64,000 nucleotides of DNA, taken from Desulfovibrio aminophilus DSM 12254. GTDB lineage: Bacteria; Desulfobacterota; Desulfovibrionia; Desulfovibrionales; Desulfovibrionaceae. The notes below the pieces were generated by a model, which searched no databases, was not told the origin of the DNA, and saw only the letters and a list, made by a program, of their open reading frames with translations. Location of the stretch: NCBI RefSeq assembly GCF_000422565.1, contig NZ_KE383876.1, positions 34,803 through 98,802 of the forward strand, written 5' to 3'. Position 1 is the stretch's first letter, and every line of letters begins with the position of its first letter. This document shows positions 4,959-41,445 of the stretch, in pieces. A program made the translations under genes and the position numbers.

Positions 4959-5034
4959 CCCCCTTCGGGGGCTTACAGAAAGGCCAAGAGGCTCTCATCT
5001 CCCCACCTTTCCGTAAATGGGGGCGGGGCCCCCT
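4959..5034. repeat. Family-1 terminator-like repeat upstream of mtgA and the acetamidase gene
   Basis: CCCCCTTCGGGGG hairpin, then CTTACAGAAAGGCCAAGAGG, the complementary arm CACCTTTCCG and a GGGGCGGGGCCCC end. It lies between the divergent mtgA and acetamidase genes; the rest of this 239-bp gap holds the acetamidase leader. Confidence 0.8.
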
Positions 5035-5162
5035 GGACGGAGGGAGGCGGGGCGGATAGGGTGGATTCACAAGGCCGCCCGGGCGACCGACCCCTTCCGC
5101 GCCCGTCGGACGCGGAAACCCCGACACGCGATCCCCGAGACGGCGGCCCAAGGAGGTTCGAC

Positions 5163-6452
5163 ATGGCCGCTGAGACCATCTTCGTCAACACCTTCACCAA
5201 CGGCATCCTGGGACCGGACGTGCCCATGCTCGGCCCGGTGCGCGACGGCGGCGTCATCGTGGCCAACACGGCCCCGGGCTGCTGGGGTCCGATGCTCACC
5301 CCGGCCATCCGGGGCGGCCACGAGGTCTGCCGACCCGTGCTCGTGGAAGGGGCCGAGCCCGGCGACTCCATCGCCATCCGCATCCTGTCCATCGACGTGA
5401 CCAGCGCGGGCACGGCCTCGGGCAACGACCTGATCCACGGCGACTGCTGCCTGGGCGACCCCTACGTGGCGGGCAAGTGCCCGGGCTGCGGCGCGCTCTA
5501 CCCGGCGACGCGCGTGGAGGGCACGGGCAAGGGCTGCATCAAGTGCGCGGCCTGCGGGGCCTCCGCCGCGCCCTTCGAATTCACCAACGGCTACACCATC
5601 GCCTTCGACGAGACCCGGCGCATGGGCCTGACCCTGGACCGGGCCGCGGCCGAAAAAGCCGCCGCCGAGGCCAGGAAATTCATGGCCACGCCGGACAACT
5701 CCATCCAGAATCCGGTGGTGGCCCTGGCCCCCTGCGACATCCCGGGCGTGGCCGCGCGCATGATCCCCTTCGTGGGCCAGCTCGGCGTGGTGCCCGTGCG
5801 GCCCACCCCGGACTCGCACAACGCCCAGGACTTCGGCTCCTTCCTCGTGGGCGCGCCCCACGAGTACGCCATCACCCAGGAACAGCTCGCCGACGTGACC
5901 GACGGCCACATGGACATCAACCGCGTGCGCGCCGGAGCGGTGCTTATCGCCCCGGTGCGCGTGCCCGGCGGCGGGGTCTACGTGGGCGACATGCACGCCA
6001 TGCAGGGCGACGGCGAGATCGCGGGCCACACCGCCGACGTCTCCGGCGTCATCGCCATGCGCGTGAGCGTGCTCAAGGGCGTGACCTGCGGCGGCCCGAT
6101 CATCCTGCCCCTGGCCGAGGACCTGCCGCTCCTGGCCCGGCCCTTCTCGGCCGAGGAAAAGGCCCTGGCCCGGCGCATGGCCGAAGAGCGCGGCGTGACC
6201 CTGGAGGAATCCGCGCCCATCTCCTTCGTGGGCAGCGGCCCGACCCTGAACGCGGCCACCGACTGCGCCCTCAAGCGCGCCGCCGCCTTCCTCGACACGA
6301 CCGTGCCCGAGGTCATGAACCGCGCCACCATCACCGGCAACATCCAGATCGGCCGCAACCCCGGCACCGTCACGGCCACCTTCCTGGCCCCCACGGCCAA
6401 GCTCAGGGAAAAGGGCGTCTACGACCTGATCCGCGACCAATACTCCCTCTGA
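5163..6452 (+). CDS. Acetamidase/formamidase family protein with inserted zinc ribbon
   Basis: 429 residues of the FmdA_AmdA family (PF03069), which hydrolyses short aliphatic amides to the acid and ammonia. Family features include GCWGPMLTPAI near the N-terminus, GDSIAIRI, the GGVYVGDMHAMQGDGE active-site region and SGVIAMRVSV. Between residues 106 and 131 there is a compact four-Cys element (CPGCG ... CIKCAACG), which looks like a zinc ribbon inserted between the first strands. The start is fixed by AAGGAGG seven bases upstream. The gene ends immediately before a family-1 repeat (TCTGACCCCCTTCGG). Cytoplasmic; the context gives no pathway. Confidence 0.9.
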   Translation: MAAETIFVNTFTNGILGPDVPMLGPVRDGGVIVANTAPGCWGPMLTPAIRGGHEVCRPVLVEGAEPGDSIAIRILSIDVTSAGTASGNDLIHGDCCLGDPYVAGKCPGCGALYPATRVEGTGKGCIKCAACGASAAPFEFTNGYTIAFDETRRMGLTLDRAAAEKAAAEARKFMATPDNSIQNPVVALAPCDIPGVAARMIPFVGQLGVVPVRPTPDSHNAQDFGSFLVGAPHEYAITQEQLADVTDGHMDINRVRAGAVLIAPVRVPGGGVYVGDMHAMQGDGEIAGHTADVSGVIAMRVSVLKGVTCGGPIILPLAEDLPLLARPFSAEEKALARRMAEERGVTLEESAPISFVGSGPTLNAATDCALKRAAAFLDTTVPEVMNRATITGNIQIGRNPGTVTATFLAPTAKLREKGVYDLIRDQYSL

Positions 6453-6523
6453 CCCCCTTCGGGGGTTTACGGAAAGGCGGGAGAGGGGTTCCTCTGCCGC
6501 CTTTTTTGGTTTTCCGGAAACCG
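6444..6523. repeat. Family-1 repeat, left boundary copy of the AlbA-ParA cassette
   Basis: 80 bp that include the acetamidase stop codon. It is nearly identical (one substitution and one T fewer) to 8811-8889 at the 3' end of the ParA gene. Contains CCCCCTTCGGGGG, then GGAAAGGCGGGAGAGG, its complement CCTCTGCCGCC, a T6 run and TTTCCGGAAA. The T run makes it a plausible terminator for the acetamidase gene. Confidence 0.88.
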
Positions 6524-6541
6524 ACGAAGCCGGCCCGGAGC

Positions 6542-6570
6542 TTGCGGAATGGACCGGCCCAACGTACCAT
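6542..6570 (+). promoter_or_regulatory. Possible sigma-70 promoter of the AlbA-ParA operon
   Basis: TTGCGG, 17 bases, TACCAT, about 50 bp before the first start codon. Only the general shape supports it. Confidence 0.3.
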
Positions 6571-6621
6571 GCTTCATGCGGCGAGTTTTCCCGAACAGGC
6601 GGAACCGCTTCGCTGGAGAGG

Positions 6622-7830
6622 ATGATGACTTACTCGGACAAGCAACTTGAAGCCCTGCTCGACGATCTCGAATCCGACCTTGCCGAACGCAAGGAGTCCT
6701 GGAAGGGAGACGCGCCTGATAAGGGAAGACAGTCAATATGCGCCTTCGCCAATGACCTCCCGGGCCATGAAAAGCCGGGAGTCTTATTCGTGGGAGCGAA
6801 GGACGACGGCAATCCGAGCGGCTTGGCGATCACCGACGAATTGCTCCGAACTCTTTCCGACATCAAGACGGACGGCAATATTCTGCCCCCGCCGTCGATC
6901 ATCGTTGAGAAGAGACATCTGAAAAACGCCGACTTGGCGGTTGTTTTCGTGCAGCCGTCAGATGCCCCGCCCGTGCGCTACAGAGGGCGGATATGGCTCC
7001 GCGTGGGCCCTCGCCTCTGCCTCGCGACCGCTCAGGATGAACGAGTCCTGAATGAAAAACGGCGGGGCCGCGATCTCCCTTTCGATGTTCAGCCGCTTCC
7101 CTCCTGCGATTTGAAGGAACTCAGCAAGCTGCTGTTCGTGGAAGAATATCTGCCCAACGCCTTCGCCCCGGACATCCTGGCCGCGAACCAGCGGAGCTAT
7201 GAGCAACGGCTGGCCTCATGCCGCATGATCGCCTCGGTGGACTCCCCCATTCCCACGATCCTCGGCGTTCTGGTTCTCGGGCTCACGCCCAGGGATTGGA
7301 TACCCGGCGCGTATGTCCAATTCCTCCGCATCGGCGGCGCTGAACTCTCCGACCCGATTCTCGACGAAGTGCTCGTGGACGGCCCGCTGGGCCAGCTTCT
7401 GCGCAGAATTGATGAAAAGATGGACTCCCACAACCGCACGGGCGTCGACATCACCTCCTCCGACCGGGAAACGCGGACGACGCCCTATCCCCGGGCCGCG
7501 TTGCAACAGTTGGTCCGCAACGCGGTGATGCATCGCACTTACGAAAACACGAACGCTCCGGTCCGGATCAACTGGTTCGACGACCGCATTGAAATCCTGA
7601 ACCCAGGCGGACCATTCGGGACCGTCACGCGGGAGAACTTCGGCCGGCCGGGAATCACGGACTACCGGAATCCCAATTTGGCCGACGCCATGCGGGTGAT
7701 GGGCTTCGTGCAGCGCTTCGGCGTGGGCATCCAGATCGCGAAGGCGGAACTGCGCAGGAACGGCAATCCGGATCTCCAGTTTTCCATTGAACAGAATTAT
7801 GTCCTCGCGACCATCAGGAGACGCCCATGA
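6622..7830 (+). CDS. AlbA_2 (Schlafen-type) domain ATP-binding protein
   Basis: 402 residues. The N-terminal part (about 15-140) fits the AlbA_2/Schlafen-like putative nucleic-acid-binding domain: ERKESW, ICAFANDL, GVLFVGAKDDG and YRGRIWLRVGPR are typical landmarks. The C-terminal part (about 290-395) is an HATPase_c_4-like domain with LVRNAVMHRTY, IEILNPGGPFG and GFVQRFGVGIQIA. Such proteins are often annotated as regulators or are found in phage-defence loci. The gene overlaps the following ParA gene by four bases (ATGA), so the two are translationally coupled. Two adjacent ATGs are available at the start, preceded by GGAGAGG. Its composition is less GC-extreme than its neighbours', consistent with transfer. 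Confidence 0.85.
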   Translation: MMTYSDKQLEALLDDLESDLAERKESWKGDAPDKGRQSICAFANDLPGHEKPGVLFVGAKDDGNPSGLAITDELLRTLSDIKTDGNILPPPSIIVEKRHLKNADLAVVFVQPSDAPPVRYRGRIWLRVGPRLCLATAQDERVLNEKRRGRDLPFDVQPLPSCDLKELSKLLFVEEYLPNAFAPDILAANQRSYEQRLASCRMIASVDSPIPTILGVLVLGLTPRDWIPGAYVQFLRIGGAELSDPILDEVLVDGPLGQLLRRIDEKMDSHNRTGVDITSSDRETRTTPYPRAALQQLVRNAVMHRTYENTNAPVRINWFDDRIEILNPGGPFGTVTRENFGRPGITDYRNPNLADAMRVMGFVQRFGVGIQIAKAELRRNGNPDLQFSIEQNYVLATIRRRP

Positions 7831-8819
7831 GCATCCCGGTCCTCACCTTCTTCAACAACAAGGGCGGGGTAGGCAAAACCTCCCTGGTCTACCACCTGTC
7901 CTGGATGTTCGCGGAGTTGGGGCTCACCGTGGTGGCCGTGGACCTGGACGCCCAGGCCAACCTGACGGCCGGATTTCTCGACGAGGATGAGCTGGAGCAG
8001 CTCTGGGACGTGGAAACCGGCGCGCAAACCATCTATCGCGCCATCAAACCGCTCACGGAAGTCGGTGATCTCCTGCTTCCGGAACTCAAGAAAGTGACCC
8101 AGGGCCTCTATCTGTTGCCCGGCGACGTGGCGTTGGCGTCTTTTGAAGACACCCTCTCCACCGCTTGGGCCGACAGCATGGGGGACAACAACCTATACCG
8201 CCCGTTCCGCATCCTCACGGCCTTCTGGCAAGAGGCGCAACTGGCGGCGGAGCAGGTGGAGGCGGACCTCATCGTCATGGACGTCGGGCCGAACCTGGGC
8301 GCGATCAACCGCTCTGCCCTCATCGCCTCCGAATATGTCGCCATCCCCCTGGGGGCCGACCTCTTCTCCCTTCAAGGATTGAAAAACCTCGGCCCCACTC
8401 TGCGCTCCTGGCGCGCCTCATGGAAAAAGCGCTTCGAAAACTGGCCCTCCCATAGTTTCGCGCTCCCGGGGGGAGAAATGCGGCCTCTCGGCTACATCGC
8501 CCAACAACACAGCGTGCGACTGAGTCGCCCGGTCAAGGCATACGACAAGTGGATCAACAGGATGCCCTCGACCTATCACGACTGCCTGTTGGGCGGGAAG
8601 ACCACGGCAAGCACTCCATCCGAAGACCCGGACTGTCTCGCCACGCTGAAGCATTACCGCAGCCTCATCCCCATGGCCCAAGAGGCGCGCAAGCCCATTT
8701 TCGAGCTGACTTCGGCCGACGGCGCCATCGGCGCTCACGCCCAGGCCGTGGCGGACGCACGCGAGGACTTCAGGGAACTCGCGGAAAAGATGCTCGAAAA
8801 AATGGGCCTTTCCCTCTGA
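7827..8819 (+). CDS. ParA/MinD-family ATPase
   Basis: 330 residues. Walker A of the deviant type KGGVGKT at residues 12-18, the A' motif DLDAQANLT at 39-47, and Walker B in LIVMDVGPNLGAINRSAL near residue 150. Deviant-Walker ATPases form ATP-dependent dimers and position DNA or proteins. No ParB gene or centromere-like repeat array is nearby and this is chromosomal sequence, so a plasmid-partition role is doubtful. Coupling to the AlbA_2 gene suggests one two-protein system. The stop codon is the TGA of a family-1 repeat (8811-8889). Confidence 0.9.
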   Translation: MSIPVLTFFNNKGGVGKTSLVYHLSWMFAELGLTVVAVDLDAQANLTAGFLDEDELEQLWDVETGAQTIYRAIKPLTEVGDLLLPELKKVTQGLYLLPGDVALASFEDTLSTAWADSMGDNNLYRPFRILTAFWQEAQLAAEQVEADLIVMDVGPNLGAINRSALIASEYVAIPLGADLFSLQGLKNLGPTLRSWRASWKKRFENWPSHSFALPGGEMRPLGYIAQQHSVRLSRPVKAYDKWINRMPSTYHDCLLGGKTTASTPSEDPDCLATLKHYRSLIPMAQEARKPIFELTSADGAIGAHAQAVADAREDFRELAEKMLEKMGLSL

Positions 8820-8889
8820 CCCCCTTCGGGGGTTTACGGAAAGGCGGGAGAGGGGTTCCTCTTCCGCCTTTTTGGTTTTCCGGAAACCG
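8811..8889. repeat. Family-1 repeat, right boundary copy of the AlbA-ParA cassette
   Basis: 79 bp nearly identical to 6444-6523, again beginning TCCCTCTGA and covering the stop codon of the upstream gene. Confidence 0.88.
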
Positions 8890-8962
8890 GCCCCCTTCGG
8901 GGGTTCACGGAAAGGCCAAGAGGCTTCCGGCTCTTCGCCTTTCTAAACACCCCCGAAGGGGG
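8890..8962. repeat. Family-1 repeat overlapping the 3' end of cheD
   Basis: CCCCCTTCGGGGG, TTCACGGAAAGGCCAAGAGG, the complementary TTCGCCTTTCT, and CCCCCGAAGGGGG at the right end. The right hairpin encodes the last residues of CheD (PFGGV) on the minus strand. Confidence 0.82.
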
Positions 8963-9476
8963 CGGGGCCGGAGCGCATGCCGTGGACGGGCGTTTCGGAG
9001 AGGATCTTCATGTAGACGTCGCCGGTGGAGGGCAGGAACACGAGCTTGCGGCCGCGCGTGCCGCCCACGTTGGAGGCCGTAACCCGCAGCCCGGCCGAGG
9101 CCAGGCCGGCGAAGGCCGTGCGCACGTTCTTCATGCCGATGCCGAACTCGCCCTGGACCAGGGAGTTGGCCCCGCCGAAGACCTTCACCTCCAGGTCGGC
9201 CATGCAGCGCAGGCTCGCGAAACGGTGAAGCAGCTCCGCGATGGCCGAGTCCACGTAGCGGAACGGGCCGTCGTCCTGGCCCTGCCGGGCGAATTCCGCC
9301 CGCGCGGGCAGCAGGGCGTGGAAGGTGGCCCCGACGCCGCGCGAGGGGGAATGGAAGGTCACGGCCACGCACGAGCCCAGGAGCACGTGGACCCGGGCCG
9401 GGCTGTCGAAGACCCCGCCCTCGCCGATGCCCAGATGCCGGACCGGAAAGCCTTCAGGCGAAAGGAGCGCGTTCAT
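8943..9476 (-). CDS. cheD: Chemoreceptor glutamine deamidase CheD
   Basis: 177 residues. CheD deamidates glutamines of methyl-accepting chemotaxis proteins in the cytoplasm. The catalytic Cys36 lies in VLLGSCVAVTF and the His53 in TFHALLP; the FGGAN motif and the NVGGTRGRKLVF strand are also typical. It overlaps the preceding response-regulator gene by four bases, so the two are coupled. The last five residues (PFGGV) come from an adjoining family-1 repeat. Two MCP genes and a cheV gene elsewhere in the window are possible partners. Confidence 0.92.
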   Translation of the reverse strand: MNALLSPEGFPVRHLGIGEGGVFDSPARVHVLLGSCVAVTFHSPSRGVGATFHALLPARAEFARQGQDDGPFRYVDSAIAELLHRFASLRCMADLEVKVFGGANSLVQGEFGIGMKNVRTAFAGLASAGLRVTASNVGGTRGRKLVFLPSTGDVYMKILSETPVHGMRSGPAPFGGV

Positions 9477-29187: not shown

Positions 29188-29252
29188 TCCCCCTTTTCAG
29201 GAAGGCGGAAGAGGCGAGAGCCTCTCGGCCTTTCTCTAAACCGCCGAAGGCG
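29124..29252. repeat. Two family-1 repeats between convergent genes
   Basis: The first (CCCCCCATTCGGGGG, TTCTCGGAAAGGC, CGGCCTTTCCATGA) forms the end of the hydrolase gene; the second (CAGGAAGGCGGAAGAGG, CTCGGCCTTTCTCTAAA, CCGCCGAAGGCGG) forms the end of mutM on the other strand. Confidence 0.82.
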
Positions 29253-30063
29253 GCTGGCATTTGGGGCAGTAGGTGGTGCTTCGGCCGCCGACCTTGGCTC
29301 CGCGCAGGGTGGCGCCGCAGACGCGGCAAGGCTCGCCCGCGCGGCCGTAGACGTTGAAGTGGTTCTGGAAGGCCCCGGCGTTGCCGCCCGCGTCGCGGTA
29401 GTCGCGGATGGAGGAGCCGTTCTCGCGGATGGCCTGGGTGAGGACTTGTTGGAGTTCCTTGTGGAGACGACGCAGCCGGGGGGCCGAGAGGACCGAGGTC
29501 TTGTCCTGGGGCCGGATTCCGGCGCGGAACAGGGACTCGTCGGCGTAGATGTTGCCCACCCCGGCCAGGGTGGTCTGGTCCAGGAGCGCGGCCTTGACGG
29601 CACGCGAGCCCGCGCCCAGGCGCTCGACGAAGAGCTTCGGGGACATGTCCAGGGGCTCCGGGCCGAGGGAGGCGTAGAACGGCCAGGCGGTCAGCTCCTC
29701 GGGCGCGAAGGCTTGGCAGGAGCCGAAGCGGCGGATGTCGGTGAAGACGAAGAACCCGCCGTCCTCGAGGTTGAAGCGGATGCGGGCGAAGCGGCGCACC
29801 TCGTCGGTGTCCAGGTCCGCCGTGACGCCGCCGGTCATGCGCAGATGCACGGCCAGCACGAGGTCGGACTCCAGGTCCAGGAGCAGGAGCTTGGCCCTGC
29901 GGCGCACGGCCAGGACGCGGCGTCCGGCCAGCCGCTTGGCGAAAGGCTTGGGCCCCTGGGGCGCGCTGATGGCGTCGAGCACGTCCACGGAACGGATGCG
30001 GCGGCCCCGCAGGGCGGGGTCCAATCCCCGGGCGATGGTCTCCACCTCGGGCAGTTCGGGCAT
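29236..30063 (-). CDS. mutM: Formamidopyrimidine-DNA glycosylase (Fpg/MutM)
   Basis: 275 residues. It excises oxidised purines such as 8-oxoguanine and cleaves the abasic site. The N-terminal catalytic PELPEVE follows Met1; the helix-two-turn-helix region has LLDQTTLAGVGNIYADE; the C-terminal zinc finger uses Cys246, Cys249, Cys266 and Cys269. All essential parts are present. The last five residues (PPSAV) and the stop lie in a family-1 repeat. It is divergent from the selenoprotein gene. Confidence 0.97.
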   Translation of the reverse strand: MPELPEVETIARGLDPALRGRRIRSVDVLDAISAPQGPKPFAKRLAGRRVLAVRRRAKLLLLDLESDLVLAVHLRMTGGVTADLDTDEVRRFARIRFNLEDGGFFVFTDIRRFGSCQAFAPEELTAWPFYASLGPEPLDMSPKLFVERLGAGSRAVKAALLDQTTLAGVGNIYADESLFRAGIRPQDKTSVLSAPRLRRLHKELQQVLTQAIRENGSSIRDYRDAGGNAGAFQNHFNVYGRAGEPCRVCGATLRGAKVGGRSTTYCPKCQPPSAV

Positions 30064-30438: not shown

Positions 30439-30532
30439 CCCCCTTCGGCGCTCTGCGCAAGAGTTGAATCCCTGGGGGCTCCTCGCCCCCAGCCCCCCCC
30501 CGCCAGGCCTGAGGCCTGGACCCGATAGCGGC

Positions 30533-30617
30533 GCCCGGCTTCGCCGCCGCCTTCGGCGGTCTCCAGAACAGCCAAGAGACTCCCGCCTCTCCGCGTTTCT
30601 GAAATGGGGCGAAGCCC
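30533..30617. repeat. Family-1 repeat; shares a 53-bp identical block with 32226-32278
   Basis: CCGCCTTCGGCGG, TCTCCAGAACAGCCAAGAG, CTCTCCGCGTTTC. The block 30547-30599 is identical to 32226-32278 on the other side of the AAA ATPase gene. Final hairpin TGGGGCGAAGCCCC. Confidence 0.82.
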
Positions 30618-30638
30618 CCGACAGGCGGACGCGAGATG

Positions 30639-30758
30639 TGTTTTCACGAACCAGGCAGGGGCAAGTCAGGCCCGGCCCGACCCGCCGACACGACATGCAG
30701 AGCCGGGAATTGACCGGGAACCGGGAGTCGGCGCGCCCCTTGCCTTGGCGTGAAAACA
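30639..30758 (+). repeat. Family-2 inverted-repeat element, copy D
   Basis: 120 bp, left end TGTTTTCACGA, right end GCGTGAAAACA, with the same single mismatch as copy C. Interior and flanks (GGCGGACGCGAGATG left, CGAGTGGACGCCCCCC right) match the other copies. Confidence 0.83.
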
Positions 30759-30777
30759 TACGAGTGGACGCCCCCCG

Positions 30778-30932
30778 CCTTCGCCGCCGCCTTCGGCGGT
30801 ATACAGAAAACCAAAGAGACTCCTCTCTTCCGCCTTTCCGTAAATGGGGCCGAAGGCCCCCGCCTTCGGCGGTTTACAGAAAACCAAAGAGGCTCCCGGC
30901 TCTCCGCGTTTCCATGATCCGGCGAAGCCGGG
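30778..30932. repeat. Two family-1 repeats upstream of the AAA ATPase gene
   Basis: Two copies with CCGCCTTCGGCGG starts and CAGAAAACCAAAGAG cores; the first ends CCTTTCCGTAAATGGGG with GGCCGAAGGCCCC, the second GCGTTTCCATGATCC with CCGGCGAAGCCGG. With the preceding entries these explain the 570-bp gap. Confidence 0.8.
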
Positions 30933-31008: not shown

Positions 31009-32133
31009 ATGTCCAACCCCTTCACGCTCAAGACCCTGGGCCCGGACCAGCCGTTCTGCGACCGGGAGAAGGATCTGGCCGACCTGGCCGCCTACGCCGA
31101 GGCGGGCCAGAACGTGGTGCTTTACTCGCCCCGCCGCTACGGCAAGACCTCGCTCTGCCGCCGCCTCCAGGCCGGACTGGCGGGCCGGGGATTCCTGACC
31201 GTCTTCTGCGACTGCTACGCGGTCACGTCCGTGGACGACCTGGCCGACCGGCTCGCCCGACAGGTCCTCGAAGCCCTGCACTCCAGGGAATCCCTGCTGG
31301 ACAAAGGCCGCCGCTGGATCGGCGTGTTCCGGTCCTTCCGGCCGGTTTTCACGCCGACCCCCGAAGGCGGAGTGAGCCTGTCCGTGGAACGCGCCTCCCG
31401 CCGGGATTCCGGGCTCGACGTGTTCGCGCGGGTTCTGGAAGATCTGGACGCCTTCCTGACCCGTGGGGAAACCCCGGTTCATGTGACGCTCGACGAATTC
31501 CAGGAGATTTCGGAACTGGGCGACGGCCGCGTGGAGGCGCTGCTGCGCACGCACATCCAAGGCCAGCGCGCCGCCTATTGTTTCGTGGGCAGCCGCCGCT
31601 CCGTGCTGCTCGGCATGTTCACCGCCCGGAAGCGCCCGTTCTACCAGAGCGCCTTGCTCCACGCCCTGCCGCCCCTGCCGCGCGCGGACCTGATCGCCTT
31701 CCTGCGCGCCCGTTGCGCGGCCGGAGGCAAGGAGTGCCCGGAGGCCGCGGCCGCGACCCTGGCCGACCTCTCCGCCGGATATTCCTGGTACGCCCAGGCC
31801 CTGGGTTTCCACGCCTTCGCCCTGGCCGGGCAGCGGCTGACCCCGGAAGACGCCACGACGGCGCGGGAGATGGTCCAGGACCAGGAGCGCTTCGGCCACG
31901 AGGCCCAGGTGCGCGACCTGCCCGCCCCGCAAATCCAGCTTCTCCGGGCCCTGGCCGCCGATCCCACCTCCGCCCCGTTGGCGGCGGACTACCTGGCCCG
32001 CTGGGCCCTGGGCGCATCCACGACCGCCTACTCGCGCAAGCAACTGGTCAGCCGCGACCTGATCGAGAAGGACGACGCGGGCCTCTGGCGCGTTGTGGAC
32101 CCGTTCTTCGCCGAATGGCTGCGCCGCCTCTAG
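31009..32133 (+). CDS. AAA ATPase of the ATPase_2 type
   Basis: 374 residues. N-terminal NTPase (about 1-240) with P-loop SPRRYGKTSL near residues 40-50, Walker B VHVTLDEFQEI and the sensor-like CFVGSRRSVLLGMF. The C-terminal part (about 290-374) looks like a winged helix (AYSRKQLVSRDLIEKDDAGLWRVVDPFFAEWL), as in DEXX-box/ATPase_2 proteins. These STAND-like ATPases are common, mobile, and some act in defence or regulation; the role here is unknown. GGGAGG precedes the ATG. The gene lies between blocks of near-identical family-1 repeats and has its own operator-like palindrome. Confidence 0.85.
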   Translation: MSNPFTLKTLGPDQPFCDREKDLADLAAYAEAGQNVVLYSPRRYGKTSLCRRLQAGLAGRGFLTVFCDCYAVTSVDDLADRLARQVLEALHSRESLLDKGRRWIGVFRSFRPVFTPTPEGGVSLSVERASRRDSGLDVFARVLEDLDAFLTRGETPVHVTLDEFQEISELGDGRVEALLRTHIQGQRAAYCFVGSRRSVLLGMFTARKRPFYQSALLHALPPLPRADLIAFLRARCAAGGKECPEAAAATLADLSAGYSWYAQALGFHAFALAGQRLTPEDATTAREMVQDQERFGHEAQVRDLPAPQIQLLRALAADPTSAPLAADYLARWALGASTTAYSRKQLVSRDLIEKDDAGLWRVVDPFFAEWLRRL

Positions 32134-32141
32134 CCTGCCGC

Positions 32142-32295
32142 CTTCGCCGCCCCCCTTCGGGGGGCTTCAGAACAGCCAAGAGGCTCCTCTCTTCCCGCCT
32201 TTCCGTAAATGGGGCCGAAGGCCCCCCGCCTTCGGCGGTCTCCAGAACAGCCAAGAGACTCCCGCCTCTCCGCGTTTCCGTGCCCCAGCGGGGGG
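32142..32295. repeat. Two family-1 repeats after the AAA ATPase gene
   Basis: The first has CCCCCCTTCGGGGGG, CTTCAGAACAGCCAAGAGG, CGCCTTTCCGTAAATGGGG. The second contains the 53-bp block identical to 30547-30599. Confidence 0.82.
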
Positions 32296-34023: not shown

Positions 34024-34791
34024 ATGGATGACTGTATCCGCATGCGGCGATCCGCCTTCCCGCGCGGACTGTCGCAAAGCAAGACAGGCCATAGATTTTC
34101 GGTCGACTCCCTGCTCCTGGCCTCCTTTGCGCGAATCCGCCGCAAGGACCGCCTGGGGCTCGATCTGGGCGCCGGCTGCGGGGTGGTGGGGCTGGCCCTG
34201 CTCCTCCTGCACCCGGACCAGAATCTGCGGATCACGGGCCTGGATATCGACCCGGAAATGGCGCGCCACGCATCGATCAATGCGGAACGTCTCGGACTCC
34301 AACAGCACTTCAACATACTGAACGAAGACGTATCGTCATACAGAACGTCAAACAAAACGCCCTATGACTTCGTATCGTGCAACCCGCCCTGGCGCGATCC
34401 CGCAAGCGGGCGGCTGAGCCCCGGGCCGGACAAGGCCCGCGCCCGGGCCGAACTGGACGCCGGGCTGGACGCCTTCGCCTCGGCCGCGTCCCGGGCCCTG
34501 GGCGCGCGGGGCCGCTTCTTCCTGCTCCACACCCCGGATCGCCTGGAGGCCGTGCTGGCCTCCTGCCGGGCCCACGGCCTGGCCCCCAAGCGGCTGCGCC
34601 TCGTCCACGGCCACGCCGAGACCCCGGCCCGGGCGCTCCTCCTGGAGGCCGTGCGCGGCGGCGCGCCGGGGCTCGTCGCGGAGCCGCCGCTCCTGCTCTA
34701 CCAAGGCCCGGAGCCGAACGCCCCGCACACGGAGGCGGCCCTTGCCTTTTGCCCGTTTCTGGGGTGCAATCGGGCGGCAATGAAGGAGTGA
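34024..34791 (+). CDS. TrmN6-like (YfiC) N6-adenine methyltransferase
   Basis: 255 residues, Rossmann-fold class I methyltransferase. Motif I is DLGAGCGVVGL, the acidic end of strand 2 is GLDIDPE, and the catalytic NPPW is the N-P-P-(Y/F/W) tetrad of amino-methyltransferases. It matches the tRNA1(Val) A37 N6-methyltransferase family in order and length. The 5' half is markedly less GC-rich than the 3' half. It ends five bases before the DUF3795 gene, so it starts a dense run of genes up to 38481. Confidence 0.85.
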   Translation: MDDCIRMRRSAFPRGLSQSKTGHRFSVDSLLLASFARIRRKDRLGLDLGAGCGVVGLALLLLHPDQNLRITGLDIDPEMARHASINAERLGLQQHFNILNEDVSSYRTSNKTPYDFVSCNPPWRDPASGRLSPGPDKARARAELDAGLDAFASAASRALGARGRFFLLHTPDRLEAVLASCRAHGLAPKRLRLVHGHAETPARALLLEAVRGGAPGLVAEPPLLLYQGPEPNAPHTEAALAFCPFLGCNRAAMKE

Positions 34792-35242: not shown

Positions 35243-36580
35243 ATGATCGCCCGCCTCGTCCTGGAAAACTTCATGGCCCACGCCCGCACCGAGCTGGAGC
35301 TGGGCCCGGGCGTCACGGCCCTCACCGGCCCCAACAACGTGGGCAAGTCCGCCGTGGTCGAGGCCCTGCGCTGTCTGGCCCAGAACCCCACACCGCGCCA
35401 CGTCATCCGCCACGGGGCCAAGGAGGCCCGCGTGAGCGTCGAGTTGGACGACGGCACGCGCGTGGTCTGGATCAGGAAGAAGGCCGGCGCGGGCTACCAG
35501 CTCTGGCGGCCCGGGGCCGAGGCCCCCGAGGAGTTCTGGAAACTCGGGCGCGGCGGCGTGCCCGATGAAATTCGCGAGGCCCTGCGCCTGGAGACCGTGG
35601 TCCTGGAGAATCGCGACGACGCCATCGACGTGCATCTCGGCAACCAGCGCCGCCCCATCTTTCTGCTCGACGAACCGCCCTCGACCGCGGCCGCCTTCTT
35701 CGCCGCCTCCAGCGAGAGCGCCCACCTCCTGGCCATGCAGGACTCGCTCAAGCGCCGCGCCGCCGACGCCCGCCGGGACCAGGCCAAGGCGACCGCCCGC
35801 CTGTCGGCCATCGAGGACGCCCTGGACCGCCTCTCCGGCCTGCCGGACCTCGATCTGGCCCTGGCCGAGGCCCGCGACAAGGAAGAACTGCTGCGCCGTT
35901 CCGGCGAGGGCATCCCGGCCCTGGAGGACTGGCTCTCCCGGCGCACGGAGCTGAAGCGCGGGGCCGAGGCCGCCGCCCGCCGCGCCCGCGTCCTGGAGCC
36001 CCTGGCCGCCCCGCCCGCGCCCGCGCCCGTGGACCGTCTCGCCGCCCTCGGCCGCGACCTGCGCTCCGCCCGCGTCGCCCGCGAATCGACCCAGGCCAGG
36101 GCAACCGCCCTGGCGACCCTTTCGGAACCCGCCACCCCGGCCGCGACCGCGCGGCCCGCCGGGATTCTGGCCGAGCTGCGCGGCCTGCTCCGGCAGCGCG
36201 CGGCCGTGCTGGCCCGAACCGCCGCCCTGGCCCCCCTGGCCGAGGCCCCGGCTCCGGCCTCCACACTCCGCGTCGCGGAACTGGCCCAGGGCATCCGGGC
36301 CTTGAAGGCCAAGGAAAAAGCCCTCTCCGGCCGGTTCGCGGCTCTGGCCGGGCTGCGTGAATCCCCAACCGTCCGCAAGGCCGACGCCCTGGCCGAGATC
36401 CTGCGCCGCCTGTCCGAGTCCCGGGCCGCCCAGGACGCGGCCCGCAAGGCCTCCGAGGATTGCGCCGCGCGGCTCGAGACCCTGCGCGCCGAAATAGCCG
36501 CCCGGCTCGACGCCGTCGGCGTCTGTCCCACCTGCGGCGCGGGCCTGGAGCTGCACCGCTTCATCCGGGAGGACGCATGA
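35243..36580 (+). CDS. Rad50/SbcC-like N-terminal ATPase half with zinc-hook-type CxxC
   Basis: 445 residues. Residues 1-36 are the N-terminal lobe of a Rad50/SMC-type ATPase: MIARLVLENFMAHARTELEL followed by the Walker A GPNNVGKS at 29-36. Long Ala/Arg/Glu-rich helical segments (about 165-425) look like coiled coil. The protein ends 15 residues after VCPTCGAG (Cys428, Cys431), the CxxC of a Rad50-type zinc hook. There is no signature motif, Walker B or C-terminal lobe; these are in the gene at 37825. It overlaps the Mre11-like gene by four bases (ATGA). Confidence 0.85.
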   Translation: MIARLVLENFMAHARTELELGPGVTALTGPNNVGKSAVVEALRCLAQNPTPRHVIRHGAKEARVSVELDDGTRVVWIRKKAGAGYQLWRPGAEAPEEFWKLGRGGVPDEIREALRLETVVLENRDDAIDVHLGNQRRPIFLLDEPPSTAAAFFAASSESAHLLAMQDSLKRRAADARRDQAKATARLSAIEDALDRLSGLPDLDLALAEARDKEELLRRSGEGIPALEDWLSRRTELKRGAEAAARRARVLEPLAAPPAPAPVDRLAALGRDLRSARVARESTQARATALATLSEPATPAATARPAGILAELRGLLRQRAAVLARTAALAPLAEAPAPASTLRVAELAQGIRALKAKEKALSGRFAALAGLRESPTVRKADALAEILRRLSESRAAQDAARKASEDCAARLETLRAEIAARLDAVGVCPTCGAGLELHRFIREDA

Positions 36581-37533
36581 GCCTGCCCCGCGTCCGGGCC
36601 TCGGGCCTGCTCTTCGCCGCCGACCCCCACGTGGCCGACACGCCCCCGGGCCAGCGCCTGCCCGGCTACCGCGAGCAGATTCTGGACAAGCTGGCTGCCT
36701 GGCTCGGCCTGGCCCGCGAGCTGGACGCCCTGCCCGTGCTCCTGGGCGACCTCTTCCACTGGCCGCGCGAGAACTCCAACGCCCTGCTGGTGGCGCTCAT
36801 GCGCCTGTTCACGCCCCAGCGGCCCTTCGTCCTGGTGGGCAACCACGACAAGCACCTGGCCCGGCTCACCAGCGACGTGTCCCTCTCCGTGCTGGCCGAG
36901 GCCGGGGCCGTGCGGCTCCTGGACGAGCCCGGGCCCGCCTTCGTCCTGGAAACCCCCGGCGGCGAAGCCCTCATCGGCGCGAGTCCCGACGGCTCTCCCC
37001 TGCCCGCGCGCTTCGAGCGCGCCCCCGGCGATCCCGGAACCGTGGTCTGGCTCACGCACCACAACATCCGCTTCCCGGAGTTCGAGACCCGGGCCCACGG
37101 CATCCACGAGCTGCCGGGCATCGACCTGGTGGTCAACGGCCACATCCACCGGCCCCAGCCCGACGTGCGCGCCGGGACCACGCTCTGGGTCAACCCCGGC
37201 AACACCACCCGGCTGACCTTCACCCGCCGCTCCCAGGAGCGCCGTCCGGCCGTGTTCTTCTGGGCCCCGGGCCGCGACGGCCTGGAGCGCCGCGAGCTGC
37301 CCTTCCTGCCCTTCGAACAGGTCTTCCCGGACCAGGAGTTCCCGCCCGAGGAGCAGGAGACCGAGGGCGAATCCCGCTTCATCCAGGGCCTGGAGCGTCT
37401 GGCCTGGCGGCGCACCGGCGAGGGCACCGGGCTGAAGCAGTTCCTGCAAGCCAACCTGAACCCCGAACTCCCGGAGAGCGCGCTCGTCTGGGAGCTGTAC
37501 GAGGAGGTCGTGCATGGTTCCGAAGCAGAATGA
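36577..37533 (+). CDS. Mre11/SbcD-like metallophosphoesterase
   Basis: 318 residues, shorter than typical SbcD. The phosphoesterase metal motifs are all present: DPH (Asp16, His18), GDLFHW (Asp58), GNHD (89-91 for NHD), WLTHHN and GHIH (His189, His191). In the Mre11-Rad50 family this subunit is the Mn-dependent nuclease. The C-terminal region (about 245-318) is acidic and helical and may bind the coiled-coil base of the partner. It sits between the two halves of a Rad50-like ATPase, with overlaps on both sides (ATGA upstream, 20 bp downstream), so complex formation is very likely. Confidence 0.88.
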   Translation: MSLPRVRASGLLFAADPHVADTPPGQRLPGYREQILDKLAAWLGLARELDALPVLLGDLFHWPRENSNALLVALMRLFTPQRPFVLVGNHDKHLARLTSDVSLSVLAEAGAVRLLDEPGPAFVLETPGGEALIGASPDGSPLPARFERAPGDPGTVVWLTHHNIRFPEFETRAHGIHELPGIDLVVNGHIHRPQPDVRAGTTLWVNPGNTTRLTFTRRSQERRPAVFFWAPGRDGLERRELPFLPFEQVFPDQEFPPEEQETEGESRFIQGLERLAWRRTGEGTGLKQFLQANLNPELPESALVWELYEEVVHGSEAE

Positions 37534-37828
37534 GGACCAGGCCCTGGAGGCCGAGCTGGAGGCGTTGCGCCGCCGCTACGAAGGACTCAAGGAGCAGAAG
37601 GTCCGCCTGGAGCAGGACCAGGCCCATCTGGCCCGCCGCATCGCCGAGCTGGAGGAGGCCGCCCGCGCCGAGTTCGGCACCGCCGACCCGGCCGAGCTGG
37701 AACGCCTCCTGGAAGAACGCCGGGCCGAGAACCGGCGTCTGGTGGAGGACTACCGCAAGCATCTGCAAGGCATCCAGGACGGCCTCTCGGCCATTGAGGC
37801 CCAAGCCTCGCGGGACGAACGCCGGTGA
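37514..37828 (+). CDS. Small coiled-coil protein of the split Rad50-like operon
   Basis: 104 residues, almost entirely heptad-like charged helix (LEAELEALRRRYEGLKEQ, LARRIAELEEAARAEF) with no cysteine. It overlaps the Mre11-like gene by 20 bp and the following ATPase gene by four (ATGA). A coiled-coil bridging or extending the arms of the split ATPase is a reasonable inference. No known family is recognised. Confidence 0.75.
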   Translation: MVPKQNEDQALEAELEALRRRYEGLKEQKVRLEQDQAHLARRIAELEEAARAEFGTADPAELERLLEERRAENRRLVEDYRKHLQGIQDGLSAIEAQASRDERR

Positions 37829-38481
37829 ACGATCCGCAAGCCTCCCCCATGCCCGACGCGCGCGCCCTGGAGCGCCGTCTGGACCGGCTCCAGGCCCGGG
37901 CCGAATCCCTGGCCGCCGAGCACGGCCGCGTCCGCGCCGAGGAGGCCGCCCTCGCGGCCTTCCTGGACCTCGCGCCCCGCGCGGCCCGCACCCTGGAAAA
38001 CCTGGCCACGGCCCTGTTCGGCGAGCTGCTGGACGAGATCGAGGCCAACCTGACCTACGCCGTGCGCGAAATCCTGGGCCAGGACCGCACCGTCACCAGC
38101 CTGCGCGAGGTCAAGAACAACCGCCTCCAGGTCACCTTCCAGATCCACGCCGGGGACCAGCCCGAGAACCTGGAGGACATCCTCCACGGCCAGGGCGGCA
38201 GCGTCTGCAACATCCTCTCCGTGGGCCTGCGGCTCATCGCCCTGTCCCAGCTCGACCCAGCCCGGCACCGGCCCTTCCTGGTCCTCGACGAACAGGACTG
38301 CTGGCTGCGGCCCGCCCTGGTGCCCCGCTTCATGAAGTGCATCGCCGAGATCGCCAAGCGTCTCAACCTCCAGGTCCTGGTCATCAGCCACCACCCCCTG
38401 GACCTGTTCGTCAACGCCTGCGACCGCGTCCTCACCCTGGTCCCCGACCGCCTCCTCGGCGCGGGCTTCGCCCGTTCGTAG
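37825..38481 (+). CDS. Rad50/SMC-like C-terminal ATPase half
   Basis: 218 residues. A short helical N-terminus (about 10-85) is followed by the C-terminal lobe of an ABC/Rad50-type ATPase. The signature-like region is GQGGSVCNILSVGLRLIAL (122-140), Walker B is FLVLDEQD (151-158, Asp155/Glu156) and the switch His is in VISHHPLDLF (189-190). It has no Walker A, which is found in the protein encoded at 35243. The two should form one composite ATPase head. The stop is followed directly by a family-1 repeat. Confidence 0.82.
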   Translation: MNDPQASPMPDARALERRLDRLQARAESLAAEHGRVRAEEAALAAFLDLAPRAARTLENLATALFGELLDEIEANLTYAVREILGQDRTVTSLREVKNNRLQVTFQIHAGDQPENLEDILHGQGGSVCNILSVGLRLIALSQLDPARHRPFLVLDEQDCWLRPALVPRFMKCIAEIAKRLNLQVLVISHHPLDLFVNACDRVLTLVPDRLLGAGFARS

Positions 38482-38600
38482 AAAACCGAAGAAGCTCCCA
38501 TCCCCTGTCTTTCTGAAGACCGGCTTCGCCGCCCCCTTCGGGGGTTCATGGAACAGCCAAGAGGCTTTCGCCTCTCCCGCCACCCTCCCTTTCCTCGAAA
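38476..38600. repeat. Two family-1 repeats ending the split Rad50-like operon
   Basis: The first (TTCGTAGAAAACCGAAGAAG, CTGTCTTTCTGAAG) contains the stop codon; the second has CCCCCTTCGGGGG, TTCATGGAACAGCCAAGAGG and a diverged right arm. The remaining 320 bp up to the MCP gene are AT-richer and hold its leader; I see no gene there. Confidence 0.78.
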
Positions 38601-41265: not shown

Positions 41266-41301
41266 AAAGGCGGGAGACAGATTCCCGCCTTTCTCTTTTT
41301 T
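41266..41301 (+). terminator. Intrinsic terminator after the first MCP gene
   Basis: Stem AAAGGCGGGA / TCCCGCCTTT followed by CTCTTTTTT. The stem is the same core as in the family-1 repeats. Confidence 0.88.
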
Positions 41302-41309
41302 CCGCCTTT

Positions 41310-41445
41310 CCCGCCTTCGGCGGTTCATGGGACGGCCAAGAGGCTTTCAGCTCTCCGCCTTTCTGGAAACCGGCGCCGCCTTCGGCGGTTCATGGAAAAC
41401 CAAAGAGGCTCTCGCCTCTCAGCTTTTCTGAAACGGGGCGGAGCC
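41310..41445. repeat. Two family-1 repeats overlapping the 3' end of cobB
   Basis: CCGCCTTCGGCGG with TTCATGGGACGGCCAAGAGG and CTCCGCCTTTCTGGAAA; then a second CCGCCTTCGGCGG with TTCATGGAAAACCAAAGAGG, CAGCTTTTCTGAAA and CGGGGCGGAGCCCC. The second provides the stop and last residues (SAPFQKS) of cobB. Confidence 0.82.

Follow-up and report, generated by a model that had tools for sequence, protein, structure and literature searches.

We analysed a 64,000-nucleotide stretch of the Desulfovibrio aminophilus DSM 12254 genome (contig NZ_KE383876.1, positions 34,803 to 98,802; hereafter the window, whose own numbering we use) that carries four consecutive forward-strand genes, A to D, whose products resemble the parts of an Mre11-Rad50 nuclease with the Rad50 ATPase divided among separate proteins. 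Gene A (35243–36580, 445 amino acids) encodes a Rad50-type N-terminal lobe (N-lobe) with an arm and a hook motif, gene B (36577–37533, 318 amino acids) an Mre11/SbcD-like phosphoesterase, gene C (37514–37828, 104 amino acids) a small protein, and gene D (37825–38481, 218 amino acids), which starts with GTG, a Rad50-type C-terminal lobe (C-lobe). Each gene overlaps the next: A and B share 4 nucleotides (ATGA, 36577–36580), B and C share 20 (37514–37533), and C and D share 4 (GTGA, 37825–37828). An earlier note on this DNA had given the overlaps as ATGA, 20 nucleotides and ATGA; the first two stand, while the last had to be corrected to GTGA. The genome comprises 3.42 Mb in 25 contigs with an estimated completeness of 99.98%, and the closest relatives of the operon among the named genomes scanned are in the Desulfovibrionaceae.

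Protein A carries a Walker A motif (GPNNVGKS, residues 29–36), a Q-loop glutamine (Q135), a helical arm of about 270 residues and, near its C-terminus, a CPTCG hook motif (residues 428–432). In a family alignment of 54 rows, picked from matches that extend to the profile end (which left out one locus, L125), residues G29, N31, N32, G34, K35, S36, Q135, C428 and C431 are invariant, and P30 is found in 49 of the 54. Without this filter, a CxxC lies within the last 60 residues of 65 of the 66 A frames from loci with complete A-B-C-D. Pfam placed AAA_23 (2.6e-9, residues 4–69) and AAA_27 (4.9e-6, 26.7 bits against a cut-off of 22 bits) on A, both above cut-off; NCBIfam gave partial matches far under cut-off, an archaeal SMC-related protein first (5.8e-11) and then archaeal Rad50 models. 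Searched against the PDB, the 54-row profile matched SMC6 (3.1e-9), Rad50 N-lobes (2.2e-8 and below) and the Rad50 zinc-hook structures 6zff (5.5e-6, profile positions 375–436) and 1l8d (1.1e-4, positions 380–436). An AlphaFold2 model of A (predicted local distance difference test, pLDDT, 80.8) consists of the N-lobe, a helix at residues 158–251, three helices of 27–28 residues broken by loops, a final helix at 381–425 and the hook, and VIA-align superposed it on residues 2–148 of Rad50 chain 1f2u_C (Z 11.1, 131 residues aligned, root-mean-square deviation (rmsd) 3.1). By eye, residues from about 250 to 380 fall into units of ~40 residues, each a helix followed by an LxxLxxPP loop. Among 56 relatives, A ranges from 399 to 566 amino acids. 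No second A was found in the D. aminophilus genome, where the next match (5.2e-7) covered 53 positions of a 536-amino-acid frame. Judged by its sequence, A is a protein that spans the N-lobe to the hook and ends there, with D as the C-lobe.

The motifs expected of that second lobe are present in D, namely a signature (GQGGSV, residues 122–127), a Walker B (VLDEQD, 153–158) and an H-loop (SHH, 188–190). G122, G124–V127, L154–E156, D158 and S188–H190 are invariant in all 67 rows of the D alignment, and Q123 is found in 64. D has no hook. Between them, A and D have the five motifs looked for in a Rad50-type head (Walker A, Q-loop, signature, Walker B and H-loop). The AlphaFold2 model of D (pLDDT 90.6; predicted template modelling score, pTM, 0.73) has a 73-residue helix (residues 12–84) followed by the C-lobe. 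Its best VIA-align superposition was on residues 738–881 of Rad50 chain 1f2u_B (Z 12.3, 141 residues aligned, rmsd 3.0), with SMC chain 1xex_B at Z 11.3. Together, the A and D models correspond to complementary segments (2–148 and 738–881) of one Rad50 entry. The D profile found only an SMC fusion chain (1.7e-4) and an ATP-binding cassette (ABC) protein in the PDB.

B shows all five metal-binding motifs of an Mre11 phosphoesterase (DxH, GDxxH, GNHD, HH and GHxH) and matches the Pfam Metallophos family (2.3e-7). D16, H18, D58, N89, H161, H189 and H191 are invariant across the 49 rows of its alignment, and H61 of GDxxH is found in only 33. The single B sequence had no match in the PDB; the 49-row profile matched archaeal Mre11 (3auz, 4.7e-7) and 2q8u (1.6e-6), which we take to be the SbcD-type protein of T. 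maritima. C-terminal segments of B past residue 240 are conserved, and the Mre11 alignments extend only to profile position 249; a capping domain and Rad50-binding helix-loop-helix like those of Mre11 would be expected in this region. Neither C nor D had a Pfam match above cut-off. C bears a YGTxD-like turn in the family alignment (here FGTAD) and is, judging by that alignment, probably a helical hairpin. A C-like open reading frame (ORF) was found in 71 of 80 related loci at E ≤ 1e-2, and C is a recurring third piece that adjoins D in phage versions too. The note had described an N-terminal Rad50-type half with Walker A at residues 29–36 and a terminal CxxC, an Mre11/SbcD-like phosphoesterase with its metal motifs, and a C-terminal half with a signature-like region, Walker B and switch histidine; each of these is borne out by the conserved motifs and, for B, by the profile match to Mre11.

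The same note proposed looking for the four-gene order in other genomes, and the operon turned out to represent a widespread family rather than a peculiarity of this genome. Across a sample of 59 genomes (that of D. aminophilus and 58 relatives), D was found in 17; an eighteenth candidate (G038, locus L044) was dropped, its match being weak and within a 507-amino-acid frame. A, B, C and D lie together in 15 of the 17 carriers, one of these being a draft genome (G001) with broken frames, while in the remaining two D lies apart from A-B-C (G032, and G007, in which A is cut by a contig start). The recurrence of this arrangement rules out an assembly error, which the note had named as something that would undo its proposal. 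B was found in the same 17 genomes, and B-like proteins with no A, C or D nearby also occur in two relatives (G037 and G012). A scan of named genomes, of which the best 80 of 125 relatives were analysed, returned A-B-C-D in order on one strand at 66 of the 80 loci. Eight more are cut by a contig end (L062, L071, L075, L096, L104, L115, L116 and L122), and six show D alone with at least 3 kb upstream; in five of these six, all but L097, A-B-C or its B-C part lies on another contig. One of the D-alone loci, L066, is probably from the same genome as the relative G007. B was found in seven of the nine genomes behind the six D-alone loci and three of the contig-cut loci. When start codons were assigned by script, neighbouring genes overlapped or lay no more than 10 nucleotides apart in 55 of 56 cases for A and B, 63 of 66 for B and C and 48 of 70 for C and D.

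By record title, the carriers include members of Desulfovibrionaceae, Syntrophobacteraceae, Desulfacinum, Desulfobacca, Desulfobacterales, Planctomycetota and Sumerlaeia, along with one 'Clostridiales' metagenome-assembled genome (MAG). No ORF in the 80 named loci matched two of the four profiles, as a fusion within the operon would, and no single Rad50 gene replaced A to D in any carrier examined, although the matching place in non-carriers was not looked at. Against a congener, amino-acid identity is 88% for A, 93% for B, 91% for C and 96% for D, and the ratios of nonsynonymous to synonymous substitution rates (dN/dS) are 0.38, 0.30, 0.17 and 0.36, respectively. Because other genera and another phylum show the same order, motifs and split point, and dN/dS stays low in every gene, the arrangement is not a product of chance; chance ORFs and a broken sbcC were both considered and rejected on this conservation. 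Two Desulfobacterales operons (L094 and L118) fall within the Planctomycetota clade of the tree described below, and their placement suggests lateral transfer.

On large plasmids, the two ATPase pieces are joined. D and A form one chain, with D first, in 10 of 11 fetched loci, from plasmids of Alteromonas, Variovorax, Aeromonas, two Bosea, Methylorubrum, two Pseudomonas, Acidiphilium and Rhizobium. The hook of these chains is at the end, a C-like gene precedes the fusion in nine of the ten (the exception is L189), and a B-like gene follows it in nine of the ten (the exception is L191; the match in L189 is weak, 7.8e-5). A cyclic shift turns A-B-C-D into this order, C-(D-A)-B. In tblastn searches, 21 of 22 plasmid records, counting the query's own, aligned unbroken over the border between D and A; 11 of the 22 were fetched. 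By its sequence the plasmid D-A chain is a circularly permuted Rad50 and the nearest single-gene version of the split ATPase, and of all the evidence it speaks most strongly for a divided Rad50. Some plasmid versions lie near genes for RecQ, a helicase, RecJ, RdgC or LigD. The eleventh locus, Cetobacterium plasmid p3 (L203), has a separate D and an A in two overlapping frames of 269 and 123 amino acids, the second with CPTC; an iscB gene lies there between D and B (4977–7039 and 7222–9432 of that locus). The fused genes (L189–L192, L201, L202 and L204–L207, all on Pseudomonadota plasmids) are annotated as AAA family ATPase, hypothetical protein or DNA repair ATPase-like protein, or lie on records that have no gene table.

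Phages carry unfused versions. In Microcystis phage Mvi-JY20 the order is A-B-C-D, with products of 332, 319, 94 and 205 amino acids and profile E values, at a nominal 1000 sequences, of 1.7e-23, 5.8e-10, 3.6e-4 and 1.5e-8, respectively. The D protein of Bacillus phage vB_BboS-125 has 27 related loci in IMG/VR, that phage's own among them. Profiles identify A, B and D at every one of these loci, the genes run A-C-D-B, and A has a CPLC or CPTC close to its end; a C-like ORF is present in all 27 by BLAST and in 18 by the C profile. Among eight further viral contigs, A and B are present in seven and D too in six of these, with the genes scattered over several kb; three and two of these contigs resemble copies of one another, and L200 carries another protein. 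No viral relatives were confirmed through the D alignment or the D of the Microcystis phage, tblastn with D found none in phages, and the plasmid-type D-A fusion was found in no phage or viral contig. In vB_BboS-125 (NC_048735.1) the Mre11-like B lies in the unannotated gap between gp36 and gp37 (about 8250–9230 of L045) and was found by way of L128 (8019–8999). An ORF resembling gp33 of that phage, which is annotated as AP2, lies between A and C in L128–L130, L144, L146, L147 and L153.

We built a midpoint-rooted tree from the joined A N-lobe and D segments, in which the outgroups do not form one clade. The family without the Microcystis phage stands apart from SbcC, T4 gp46 and two YhaN-type proteins (support 0.99), and the phage falls outside it on a long branch. 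The fused plasmid genes form one clade (0.96) that adjoins the chromosomal operons (1.00 for both together).

The split operon and the usual one-piece systems exclude each other in Desulfobacterota. Scoring an SbcD-type protein as a TIGR00619 match at E ≤ 1e-6 and a YhaN-type ATPase as an AAA_27 match at E ≤ 1e-15, we found SbcD-type proteins in 0/17 carriers versus 37/42 non-carriers of the 59-genome sample (p 9.5e-11) and in 0/14 carriers versus 153/283 other genomes of a phylum sample in which D was found in 14 of 297 (p 2.8e-5), these Fisher p-values being uncorrected for descent and the D. aminophilus genome belonging to both samples. Within the single family f1, the figures were 0/17 carriers versus 15/18 non-carriers. 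YhaN-type ATPases showed the same pattern in the 59 genomes (0/17 versus 30/42), where strong SbcC matches (E ≤ 1e-30) occurred in five genomes, all non-carriers. Families f1, f12, f56 and f96 contain both kinds of genome, so the exclusion does not come down to one split in the tree. When 50 named carriers were tested, none of the 27 from Desulfobacterota (MAGs labelled Deltaproteobacteria included) had an SbcD-type match at E ≤ 1e-6; Rhodopirellula rubra, outside that count of 50, had no SbcD match either. The earlier note had proposed checking for a separate intact sbcCD in D. aminophilus; neither it nor a YhaNO-type pair was detected, and no TIGR00618 or TIGR00619 match rose above cut-off. 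In the sampled genomes of the phylum, the split form occurs only where the usual one-piece partner genes were undetected. One relative rated 100% complete (G030) has no split operon, SbcD match or AAA_27 ATPase at the thresholds used.

Taken together, the gene content, motifs, predicted folds, conservation, D-A fusion and exclusion make it highly probable that the operon specifies an Mre11-Rad50 nuclease that is split by nature, with an ATPase head composed of two proteins and a hook close to a free C-terminus, and the original proposal of a split Rad50 with Mre11 holds at the levels of sequence, fold and comparison. A composite head is the best reading because the halves have complementary motifs, are fused elsewhere and are predicted to fold as the two lobes of an SMC/Rad50 head. 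In Rad50, ATP binds between heads, the nuclease cuts at the base and hooks join the arms. By analogy, A (Walker A, Q-loop, arm and hook) and D (signature, Walker B and H-loop) would assemble into one ABC-ATPase head with no covalent link, and two heads would dimerise around ATP with each nucleotide held between the A of one protomer and the D of the other. B would supply the nuclease as a dimer docked where the arm begins, and may cut DNA ends, hairpins or blocked ends once changes of ATP state admit DNA. Zinc would link the CPxC close to the C-terminus of A to its counterpart on a second arm. Since the hook lies near a chain end, the arm cannot be the usual one-chain hairpin; C, completing the arm that the N-terminal helix of D (residues 12–84) would begin, probably supplies part of its second strand together with that helix. 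In D. aminophilus the machine would stand in for SbcCD or YhaNO, and a role in processing breaks or hairpins is suggested by homology, by the exclusion in Desulfobacterota and by the RecQ, helicase, RecJ, RdgC or LigD genes near plasmid copies. Hook and ring features of Rad50 are treated in PMC6969161.

Several results weigh against this interpretation. By fold alone, the modelled proteins are of SMC/Rad50 type and not specifically Rad50: the A model superposed better on SMC chain 1xex_A (Z 13.2) than on Rad50, and Foldseek ranked an SMC head (5h66_B) first and Rad50 (9a9j_B) third by E value for D, for which sequence matches alone were marginal at best. Because SMC heads fit as well as Rad50, the assignment to Rad50 leans on the hook and on B. 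The arm of A was modelled at moderate confidence only (pTM 0.40), and its profile region also gave a chance PDB match to YopM (2.8e-4), close in E value to 1l8d; 6zff is for this reason the weightier evidence for the hook. The A frame of L125 (429–1889 of that locus) has no terminal CxxC and extends ~400 nucleotides into B, and in the genomes of L097 and L104 D was found but B was not. The exclusion is also imperfect. Carrier G032 has a short SbcC match (2.7e-10, positions 6–86), G018 and G033 have weak SbcD matches (3.2e-6 and 3.5e-5), and 6 of the 27 named Desulfobacterota carriers have weaker ones (1.1e-5 to 9e-4). Beyond Desulfobacterota it fails, with SbcD/YhaO-type matches at E ≤ 1e-6 in 9 of the other 23 named carriers (Planctomycetota, one Sumerlaeia and the 'Clostridiales' MAG).

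An alternative that we consider improbable is that the operon is a split SMC/Rad50-like defence system against phages or plasmids instead of a repair nuclease. PADLOC matched the A N-lobe to LmuB (2.9e-10) and GajA (8.2e-9), and matched A (1.5e-6) and D (3e-5) to mad3; the upstream methyltransferase gene (34024–34788) matches the MADS defence model mad2 (2.2e-17), and relatives of the operon reside on plasmids and phages. However, the PADLOC matches of A are confined to the P-loop region and those of D to parts of the protein, and B had none. Of seven neighbouring proteins scanned with PADLOC (one chemotaxis receptor was left out), the methyltransferase alone was matched, over its methyltransferase region, and no LmuA was found. 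Pfam identified the neighbours as MurJ, an AAA_16 ATPase, DUF3795, a methyltransferase, two chemotaxis receptors, Sir2 and thioredoxin. The surroundings of the operon are kept among Desulfovibrionaceae, with a MurJ-like cluster in 10 loci, a methyltransferase cluster in 9 and an Fpg-like cluster in 8; in the fetched flanks (ORFs of at least 90 amino acids), the largest clusters were confined to Desulfovibrionaceae and no cross-phylum neighbour pointed to a function. The exclusion of housekeeping SbcD/YhaNO-type systems in Desulfobacterota also argues for repair, which is likelier than defence.

Less probable still is that no composite head forms, with A a RecF/SMC-like ATPase, D a separate ABC-like regulator and B independent. 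The halves are indeed separate genes, D can lie away from A-B-C, and G037 and G012 have B-like proteins on their own, but D and A are fused in one chain on plasmids, each half conserves just the motifs that the other lacks, and their folds are complementary parts of one Rad50. A sequencing or assembly artefact or a decaying sbcC, for which the broken frames of draft G001 could be cited, is so improbable as to be negligible given the same division in 66 of 80 named loci and in phages, dN/dS of 0.17–0.38 across the four genes, the position of B and C between the halves and the hookless D; the note had likewise held that this is no simple broken sbcC.

There is good support from sequences and models for the split operon working like Mre11-Rad50, yet it is not SbcCD as defined, because the single-chain feature is absent. 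With Mre11-Rad50/SbcCD, including T4 gp46-gp47, it shares the folds of the head lobes, the zinc-hook CxxC and an Mre11-like nuclease in the operon. SbcCD has one polypeptide with the hook mid-chain between two coiled-coil arms, whereas here the ATPase consists of two chains and a small third chain (on plasmids, D-A) and the hook is near a free C-terminus. A and B had no match to TIGR00618 or TIGR00619 at E ≤ 1, and E. coli SbcC and T4 gp46 none at E ≤ 1 to the A or D profiles; E. coli SbcD matched the B profile at 3.5e-6. The AAA_27-type pair, presumably YhaO-YhaN (SbcEF-type), likewise combines a phosphoesterase with an SMC-like ATPase and is the one-piece counterpart in many relatives that have no split operon. 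Its ATPase is a single chain of 1176 or 1214 amino acids in the two pairs examined, against which the A profile scores 10–12 bits; A has 445 residues and a separate D, though it passes the AAA_27 cut-off. The Rad50 catalytic-domain crystals 1f2t/1f2u, presumably a laboratory construct, also have a head built from two chains, one N-terminal and one C-terminal, whereas the present division occurs in nature and extends to the arm and hook. Lamassu pairs an LmuB-like ATPase with an LmuA effector, and here LmuB matched the A N-lobe only and the seven neighbours contained no LmuA. PHROG 16465 (exonuclease) matches A residues 2–207 (2e-23) and PHROG 15167 (ATPase) matches D residues 72–191 (5.8e-6); the corresponding vB_BboS-125 genes are annotated as exonuclease and ATPase, without being described as the two parts of a single ATPase. 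PMC3175470 describes fusion proteins of Mre11 and Rad50, Mimivirus R555 among them, in which Mre11 precedes the Rad50-like part; these too are an unusual covalent arrangement of the same components and occur in phages and plasmids, whereas in the present family it is Rad50 that is divided, or permuted to D-A. In the open-licence literature we found no description of a split or permuted Rad50, most subscription papers lying outside the search.

On balance, we lean towards placing these operons in a branch of their own within the Mre11-Rad50 superfamily. Its ATPase would come as interchangeable pieces A, C and D, which can be dispersed, grouped in an operon or fused in a permuted order; the hook would lie close to a free C-terminal end, and no single covalent chain would ever close the ring. 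The branch would have repeatedly displaced SbcCD/YhaNO in Desulfobacterota and would move among chromosomes, megaplasmids and phages. Textbook Rad50 and SMC proteins are single chains that fold into one long hairpin, and the head forms where its two ends come together. Natural pieces and a permuted cousin would show that the covalent hairpin and mid-chain hook are dispensable, and would open a direct test of which portions of the arm and hook are important to Rad50 and of how heads load on DNA when the lobes are different proteins. Inventories of repair genes are affected as well, as the usual SbcC/SbcD models score these bacteria as having no such complex.

Directly 3' of D, on the forward strand, lies a copy of a dispersed intergenic repeat (38514–38595) that is not specific to the operon. 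The repeat is ~80 nucleotides long and occurs in the window in eight direct copies and at least one inverted copy within 14 kb, with copies at 29189–29264, 30529–30923, 32133–32289 and 41293–41439 in addition to that beside D.

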